From: Planctomycetota bacterium
GTDB taxonomy: Bacteria > Planctomycetota > Phycisphaerae > Sedimentisphaerales > Anaerohalosphaeraceae
Assembly: GCA_021160785.1 (NCBI GenBank)
Contig: JAGHBX010000282.1
Coordinates: 1-32,128, forward strand
Reading direction: 5' to 3'
DNA: 32,128 nt
Of the stretch, positions 25,301 to 27,725 are shown in pieces; positions within the stretch are counted from its first letter, which is position 1, and each line of letters opens with the position of its first letter. Under the pieces are notes generated by a model. It did not search any database. It had not been told where the DNA came from and saw nothing but the letters and a program-made list of their open reading frames with translations. The position numbers were made by a program, and so were the translations under genes.

Positions 25301-26188
25301 GATCTGAACGAGGCGAGGCATTTGAATGAACTGACGCCGAGGGACTATGTGATCCTGTGTGTGGACTACGCGCAGATGGGCATCGGCAATGGCAGTTGCG
25401 GGCCGGCGACACTGGATGAGTACCGGCTCAAGGCCCGGCCGTATCGGTATGGTTTCAGCCTCCGTCCGTTTGACGCCAAAACCGACGACATGGTCGCCAC
25501 GGCGGGGTATTTCGTGCCGCTGGTGGCGGCGCCCGAGATTGTTCGGGACGCCGACGGAATGGTTTCGATTCGCTGCCGGACGCCGAATAGTCTTGTCTAT
25601 TACACGACCGACGGCTCGACGCCGACGAGAGACGCAAAGCTGTTCAGTAAACCGTTCAAGCTGATTGACGGCACAACGATAAAGGCCGGGGCCTTTACAG
25701 AAAGCGGTATCGACAGCCCGACGACGACAGCTAAATTCAATCTGCTGGTTTCCAGGGCCAATTGGAAAGTGGTCAAGGCCGACAGCTTCGAGCCGGGCGA
25801 AGGTTTCGCACGCCATGCGATTGACGGTGATCCAAGCACTTTCTGGCATACCAGTTGGAGTGGCTCGCATGACCCGCAGCCGCATGAGATACAGATTGAC
25901 CTGGGATTGAAGTTCGAGCTGGCGGGCTTTAGCTATCTGCCAAGGCAAAACCAGCAAAACGGACGAATTAAGGACTACGAGTTCTACACCAGCAACGACG
26001 GCAAAAACTGGGGCAAACCAGCATCTAAAGGCAAATGGCGAAACACAACCGCCCTGCAGACCGTCCGCTTCGATAAACCCGTAGTCGCCCGATACATCCG
26101 ACTCGTTTCGCTTTCGGAAGTAACCGGAGAGTATTACACCTCGGTCGCTGAAATCGATATTATCGCAAACAAGAGACTTTTCCGTTGA
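22367..26188 (+). CDS. Secreted GH2 beta-galactosidase with C-terminal CHB_HEX_C-like and F5/8 type C-like modules
   Basis: 1273 aa; signal peptide [18 protein letters not shown]; acid/base [10 protein letters not shown], nucleophile [11 protein letters not shown], Bgal_small_N-like [24 protein letters not shown]; then [23 protein letters not shown] (CHB_HEX_C-like) and [17 protein letters not shown]...HEIQIDLG...[13 protein letters not shown] (F5/8C-like). Confidence 0.95.
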
Positions 26189-26643
26189 AACCGTTTACGC
26201 TGTTGATAAAGCCTTCCGGTTCGGACTGCAATATCGATTGCAGATACTGCTTCTACAAGCACCGCAGCCCGGATGCCGGCAAGGGCAGGCAGCGGATGAG
26301 CGATGAGGTGCTCGAAAAGCTCGTTGCCGATTATATGCAGACGGGCTTTGATGTTGTCGGGTTCGCGTGGCAAGGGGGCGAGCCGACGCTGATGGGACTG
26401 GATTTCTTCAAAAGGGCGGTCGAGTTGCAGATCAAATACGGCACGACCGCTCAGCAGATAAGCAATAAGATTCAGACCAACGGCATTTTGCTCGATGAAA
26501 AATGGTGCCGGTTTTTCCATGACAAGAAATTCCTGTTAGGTATAAGCATCGACGGGCCGGAAAAGTTTCATAATGTTTATCGTGTCGAACATGCGGACGA
26601 GATGTTCGATTTTCTTGTACAGAACGATCTGACTTATGTGTAG
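26185..26643 (+). pseudogene. Anaerobic sulfatase-maturating enzyme (anSME, radical SAM), N-terminal fragment
   Basis: TTG start overlapping the GH2 stop (TTGA); [26 protein letters not shown] (CxxxCxxC), FAWQGGEPTLMGLDFF, KIQTNGILLDEKW, LLGISIDGPEKFHNVYR. Then it jumps to VEHADEMFDFLVQNDLTYV and a stop, missing about 35 aa compared with the canonical anSME architecture. Confidence 0.85.
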
Positions 26644-27305
26644 TCTTCGACCTGTGGTGCAATCACGGCCCCGACAAGATGAACATTCGACAGTTCGATT
26701 CGCTGGTGACGTATCATGTCTTAGGCAATCACACGATGTGCACCTTCAGCAGTCAGTGCGCAGGTTTTGTCGTCGTTGAACATAACGGCGACGCTTACTG
26801 CTGCGAGTTCTTCGTAGAGCCTAAGTGGAAACTCGGTAACATCCTCGAAACGCCATTAGCCGAACTGGCTCAGAGCAAAACCAGGCGAACCTTCGCCCGC
26901 AACAAACAGAATATCTGCAACAAATGCCTCGTCTGCCGACATCTGGACTATTGCCGCGGCGGCTGTGTAAAAGACCGCACCCGACTCAACGAAGAACAAA
27001 GCCACTTTTGCGAAGGCTACAAACAGTTCTTCGACCACGCACTACCACGCATTCGGCAAATCGCCAACCAGATCCAAAACAGCACTCTGACAAGACACAC
27101 GCGGCAGGCGGAGAAGTACTGCATAGATATAATTATTCAAATCCATGCTGCGATTCATGCGCTGCATCGGGTGGCCGACAAGATCTTTATCAAACATATT
27201 GACCATTGCGTAAGAGACGCTTTCGCCGGTAAGTCAAAAAAGAAGACAGAAGAAAAAATAGACGAACTGATGAAAGTTATAAAAAATCTACACAAATTGA
27301 GTTGA
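26641..27305 (+). pseudogene. anSME C-terminal/SPASM fragment read in frame into the C-terminal part of a CsoR-family regulator
   Basis: VFDLWCNHGPDKMNIRQFDSLVTYHVLGNHTMC...CAGFVVVEHNGDAYCCEFFVEPKWKLGNI...CNKCLVCRHLDYCRGGCVKDR...FFDHALPRIRQIANQIQ (anSME C-term), followed without a stop by AEKYCIDIIIQIHAAIHALHRVADKIFIKHIDHCVRDAFAGKSKKKTEEKIDELMKVIKNLHKLS (CsoR-like). Confidence 0.8.
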
Positions 27306-27400
27306 GAACTCAAATTGCTGAATTGGAAGGCTCCCTGTAGTTTATATTCCCCGGGCTGCCGATCGCAGTATCGTGGAAATGTCTTAATAAGGATGGAACA

Positions 27401-27568
27401 ATGACTAAAGACATCGTTTGTGGAATGGAAGTGGATGAAAGTAAAGCTTTGAAGCTTCAAAAGGATGGTAAGGCATATTTCTTTTGCAACCCCTCTTGCA
27501 TGGACAAATTCAAATCGGACCCTGAGAAATACTTGCTTTCATCCCGTCGGCAATCGCAAACTCTTTGA
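27401..27568 (+). CDS. YHS-domain (metal-binding, TRASH-like) small protein or fragment
   Basis: Manual translation: MTKDIVCGMEVDESKALKLQKDGKAYFFCNPSCMDKFKSDPEKYLLSSRRQSQTL*. VCGM...FFCNPSCMDKF is the YHS signature; RBS aaggatgg upstream. Below the ORF-track length cut-off (55 aa). Confidence 0.8.
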   Translation: MTKDIVCGMEVDESKALKLQKDGKAYFFCNPSCMDKFKSDPEKYLLSSRRQSQTL

Positions 27569-27725
27569 TGAACTCAGAATCGATCTTGGCGAGTTGCCCG
27601 ATATGGCAGACGCCCTCAGAAGCCAGGGCCAGACCGTAATGTTCGCCGCTGTCGACAGCCGCCCAGCAGGCCTTCTTGGAGTTGCAGACCCAATCAAGCA
27701 AGCCGCCGGCCAGGACGCAACATAA
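27531..27725 (+). pseudogene. Fragment of a heavy-metal (Cu+) translocating P-type ATPase, P/N-domain region
   Basis: Different frame from the YHS ORF: HPVGNRKLFDELRIDLGELPDMADALRSQGQTVMFAAVDSRPAGLLGVADPIKQ, matching the CopA stretch (VGNxxL...G.T.....D....G.....D.IK). No TM helices, DKTG or GDN motifs remain. Confidence 0.7.

Follow-up and report, generated by a model that had tools for sequence, protein, structure and literature searches.

Fragments of anSME, CsoR, YHS and CopA in a planctomycete contig are probably debris of recent gene decay

How do pieces of anSME, CsoR, YHS and CopA come to lie end to end within ~1.5 kb of DNA, between an intact GH2 gene and an intact gene at 27834? This question is raised by the interval from 26185 to 27725 in a 32,128-nt stretch of a Planctomycetota bacterium (contig JAGHBX010000282.1, assembly GCA_021160785.1), referred to below as the window. 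Within a bin of 670 contigs and 4.71 Mb, estimated to be 89% complete with 4.3% contamination, the window makes up contig C144. The fragments, their junctions and the two flanking genes all lie on the forward strand. Profile and alignment matches recover the series of pieces read from the DNA by the initial annotation: an anSME N-terminal part, a short anSME piece, a SPASM C-terminal part, a CsoR C-terminal half, a YHS domain and a CopA piece ending after ADPIKQ, all present and in that order, which is far beyond chance. The five junctions that it placed at ~26585, 26640, 27110, 27540 and 27700 are close to exact, and its argument that kept motifs and few stops point to recent losses holds. 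We believe that the interval is probably real gene debris, left by recent decay of genes that were redundant or had come in by horizontal transfer. A working product from the region is not expected.

The broken anSME gene

The anSME gene spans 26185-27116 and is divided into three fragments (26185-26589, 26590-26640 and 26641-27116) that are colinear with anSME. The first fragment, corresponding to residues 1-135, contains the radical-SAM CxxxCxxC motif as CNIDCRYC and matches Pfam Radical_SAM (5e-13) and positions 2-134 of TIGR03942 (6e-53). The second, identified by alignment, corresponds to residues ~171-190 (EHADEMFDFLVQNDLTYV). The third holds the SPASM domain, residues ~222-383, and matches positions 213-362 of TIGR03942 (5e-37). 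The motif cysteines of both the radical-SAM and the SPASM parts are retained. The fragments do not add up to one open frame of ~370-400 residues in which the barrel is whole, and the window anSME scores below the curated TIGR03942 cut-off.

In an alignment with 17 relatives, the window anSME shows no gap-free match to one full-length protein; it lacks stretches of 108 and ~91 nt that are present in each intact relative extending to these points, and its sequence is otherwise well kept. At junction 1 (26583-26595), the radical-SAM barrel has lost exactly 36 residues (108 nt) after YR(V). These residues are present in all 16 relatives that reach this point, and the 17th (L118) is cut off by the end of its contig. 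Similar words flank the junction in the relatives (GT[AG]GAcCAT and GT[CTG]GA[AG]CAT), which would suit slippage at microhomology. At junction 2 (26637-26648), ~91 nt are gone and the frame changes, and the first frame contains a TAG at 26641-26643; a TTATGTG-like word is a plausible microhomology here. We infer microhomology at the deletions, and we consider it likely. The start of the gene may mark one further junction: it is now a TTG that shares bases with the GH2 stop codon (TTGA), and ATG is the start codon in every aligned relative except one.

The remaining sequence has changed little. Among 99 residues invariant in the relatives, eight are changed in the window anSME, two of them at junctions, compared with 0-7 in single relatives. 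This comparison suggests mild relaxation at most, and the slight excess of changed residues suggests that the inactivation is recent relative to the divergence of the relatives. The bin also contains an intact anSME of 373 residues on contig C601 (L085), adjoining a sulfatase-like gene. Therefore, the window copy is dispensable, and a working maturase would remain. The window anSME is nearer to the family f7 type (up to 76% DNA identity) than to this paralogue.

The anSME relatives found in a named collection come mostly from planctomycete bins labelled Phycisphaerae or Sedimentisphaerales. The closest by protein identity (76-77%) is L118, whose contig, JAUVYZ010000077.1, ends ~10 nt past the position of the window's first junction, probably by coincidence. 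Two loci of family f7, L079 (G048:C157) and L080 (G044:C163), have two anSME genes per contig, a few kb apart and with other genes between them. Another relative, L007:754-1866 (G004:C282), is an otherwise full-length anSME with one in-frame TGA at residue 64, where relatives have a Gly of WQGGEPTL.

The copper-gene pieces

At junction 3 (27105-27118), the end of anSME is joined in frame to CsoR at ~27112, with loss of the final ~7 residues of anSME and of CsoR's N-terminal part. The CsoR piece (27114-27305, G+C 0.37) is a C-terminal half with its own stop, matching PF02583 (1e-13) and Protein Data Bank (PDB) entry 4m1p (4e-8). Its copper ligands, Cys and His-xxx-Cys, are retained (YC...HIDHC, aligned to 4m1p and 4adz). 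The N-terminal part of the CsoR helical bundle is missing, and anSME accounts for the residues ahead of YCID (67% in the alignment); a hidden Markov model match of CsoR that apparently reaches further upstream overlaps residues that are clearly anSME. A YHS domain (27401-27538, G+C 0.39) that has an ATG of its own lies 95 nt past the CsoR stop. This domain of ~45 residues is complete, with positions 2-44 of 47 matched (PF04945, 5e-14). At junction 4 (27536-27546), the frame changes at ~27540 between YHS and the CopA piece, which covers 52 residues of the ATP-binding and P-domain region (27546-27701, VGNRKLF...ADPIKQ; PDB 3rfu, 9e-6) with up to 65% identity within the phylum. These 52 residues lie between the DKTGT phosphorylation motif, the CPC membrane motif and the GDG motif, all of which are lacking. 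At junction 5 (27701-27726), CopA homology stops after ADPIKQ at ~27701, and the short open reading frame ends at 27725. Neither another CsoR nor a second copy of the window's CopA or YHS pieces was found in the bin.

The base composition of these pieces differs strongly. The CsoR-YHS part (27117-27540) has a G+C of 0.396, lower than anywhere else in the window (mean 0.552, standard deviation 0.037, 424-nt windows), and the CopA piece (27546-27722) has a G+C of 0.588. The two larger anSME fragments have values of 0.51-0.53. The G+C difference between YHS and CopA is 0.20 in the window, compared with 0.01-0.07 across 11 loci where the YHS-CopA gene is intact. This contrast suggests that the pieces are probably not from one gene and makes separate YHS and CopA sources likely; the copper pieces are probably the debris of at least two imports.

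Weighing the explanations

How would the pieces have come together? A second, redundant anSME would have been inactivated by two internal deletions of ~100 nt each, both seen in the alignment. At least three more deletions or illegitimate joins would have brought its 3' end together with remnants of a CsoR-YHS unit of low G+C and a CopA gene of high G+C. The junctions themselves are observed; the order and cause of the joins we infer. The copper-gene pieces would most likely be leftovers of failed horizontal imports, in line with reports that many prokaryote pseudogenes stem from failed horizontal transfer (PMC522871). The clean cuts would be accounted for by ordinary bacterial deletion bias, probably through microhomologies a few bases long, as bacterial pseudogenes are eroded mainly through deletions (PMC2916853). 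The initial annotation instead saw a copper operon that appeared to have been hollowed out. In this form, csoR and a YHS-CopA gene would have lain 3' of anSME and been emptied by recent deletions; this overlaps with the reading of the interval as real debris, and the likelihoods that we give need not sum to one. YHS at the start of CopA is common, the order and strand of the pieces fit, and two relatives (G013 and G015) have CsoR some way ahead of a gene that contains YHS. The composition argues against a single operon, as YHS and the CopA piece have G+C values of 0.39 and 0.59 and no intact YHS-CopA gene among the 11 exceeds a difference of 0.07. The nearest intact YHS (60%) sits in a CopA only 35% like the window's CopA piece, although this is a weak point. 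No relative was found with anSME beside CsoR, and among the loci fetched both genes occur together only in the window's own genome. We found no paper on CsoR together with YHS and CopA. A single operon is improbable. Some points weigh against the decay of redundant and imported genes that we prefer. A comparison of homology ranks between YHS and CopA, with a leave-one-out control, leaned towards separate sources, as the composition does, but did not separate the window (rho -0.28) from the intact controls (-0.26 to 0.59). The comparison with sister genomes called for in the initial annotation yielded, among the loci fetched, no intact syntenic anSME-csoR-copA locus to show that the missing DNA once stood here. 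The clean cuts are more numerous than is usual in young pseudogenes; in Salmonella, 346 of 378 pseudogenes had a single lesion (PMC2916853). The sequence also comes from a fragmented bin.

The unusual number of clean cuts is the main reason why an assembly or library artefact stays a candidate, and it is the chief rival, although we consider it unlikely. The true DNA would then be longer or different, and short pieces, perhaps of more than one organism's DNA, would have been joined by the assembler or by chimeric reads. Several clean cuts in one place with no other lesions, the G+C jumps between pieces, the many contigs and estimated contamination of the bin, and one more deletion-like join in 256 kb sampled elsewhere (L264) are all consistent with this explanation. 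Against it, the scars are clustered here and the remaining genes of the window appear complete; the missing parts of anSME, CsoR and CopA were not found elsewhere in the bin, although they may lie in unbinned sequence. No word of 11 nt or longer is repeated within 26101-27850, and a simple k-mer misjoin of the visible pieces is not indicated. Assembly collapse, raised in the initial annotation, keeps some likelihood in general, but its simple k-mer form is opposed by the local scars and the lack of shared words. The other suggestion made there, a locus of repeated internal deletion, is not supported: a repeat-driven hotspot was rejected, as no repeat >10 bp occurs in the region, and Ku-dependent end joining is rejected, as no Ku gene was found in the bin at its estimated completeness. 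An active patchwork site, where short fragments from different sources are captured and joined between intact genes by Ku-free end joining, is very unlikely. We give even less credit to a working chimeric gene, in which the open reading frame 26679-27305 would encode a new sensor-like protein with the iron-sulfur SPASM domain running in frame into CsoR's copper-binding half. The fusion is open for 243 codons, with the SPASM cysteines and the CsoR copper ligands, but the N-terminal part of CsoR is absent and there is no clear ribosome-binding site ahead of 26679. No such fusion was found in the other genomes searched with CsoR, and the long CsoR frames inspected are without SPASM.

Neighbouring genes and known systems

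Both flanking genes are complete, as had been supposed. On the left, a GH2 beta-galactosidase with an F5/8-type C domain (22367-26188) was assigned by domain search and by comparison with its closest relative, in G014 (77% identity), where the stop lies at the homologous place and an unrelated opposite-strand gene adjoins GH2. On the right, the gene at 27834-30254 encodes 806 residues of an unknown family; a Pfam search of the product gave no match, and intact homologues (55-63%) exist within the order. All other genes of the window appear complete by length and domain content, and MnmG, Mfd and IleRS have their expected domains. A short dispersed palindromic element, GTAGGGCGGGGCTTGCCCCGCC-like, lies at 27768-27800 and also at 2199 and 18166; it is intergenic, occurs on other contigs too, and looks like a REP-type repeat. 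A pattern related to it has three matches in the 256 kb sampled. Close to the last junction, a hairpin at 27770 was considered and set aside, as its folding is no better than that of shuffled sequences (z -0.63).

The rest of the bin was sampled by a codon-based scan of 40 other contigs (256 kb), in which in-frame deletions escape detection. The scan gave one deletion-like join, two apparent single-base frame changes and no clusters. With isolated lesions only, a genome-wide frameshift or deletion fault was rejected. The join, at ~2350 in L264:2164-2543 (contig C8), leads from a DUF488 N-terminal stump through a frame change into the next gene, which lacks a start. The frame changes, at ~1340 of L237 (C134, a membrane-protein gene) and ~1773 of L269 (C13, an ATP-citrate-lyase-like gene), may be sequencing errors or pseudogenes.

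For annotation, we note that the open reading frames of the interval would be called a short radical-SAM protein, a SPASM-CsoR fusion and a copper ATPase piece. All three are probably spurious. Copper genes should not be called present in the bin from these fragments, and no CsoR is found elsewhere in it.

The locus looks like ordinary gene decay, and as in other bacterial pseudogenes its homology to intact genes is broken by deletion or frameshift. It shares with deletion-eroded pseudogenes (PMC2916853) a redundant gene, short internal deletions and intact neighbours; those mostly have one lesion, whereas the window has two in one gene and three beside it. With failed-transfer pseudogenes (PMC522871) it shares foreign composition and the lack of an intact copy in the genome, and it differs in having several fragments of differing composition end to end in <0.7 kb. 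Compared with anSME proteins of TIGR03942, the N- and C-terminal thirds are colinear and the CxxxCxxC and SPASM cysteines are kept, but ~67 barrel residues are missing and the frame is broken, so that it is not a working member. The CsoR piece has the C-terminal half of PF02583 with the C/H/C ligands, but it lacks the N-terminal part and is fused to the end of anSME. Like P1B ATPases of the CopA type with YHS, the window has one YHS domain and a 52-residue ATP-binding/P-domain piece; unlike them, its pieces lie in different frames and are without membrane segments, DKTGT and GDG.
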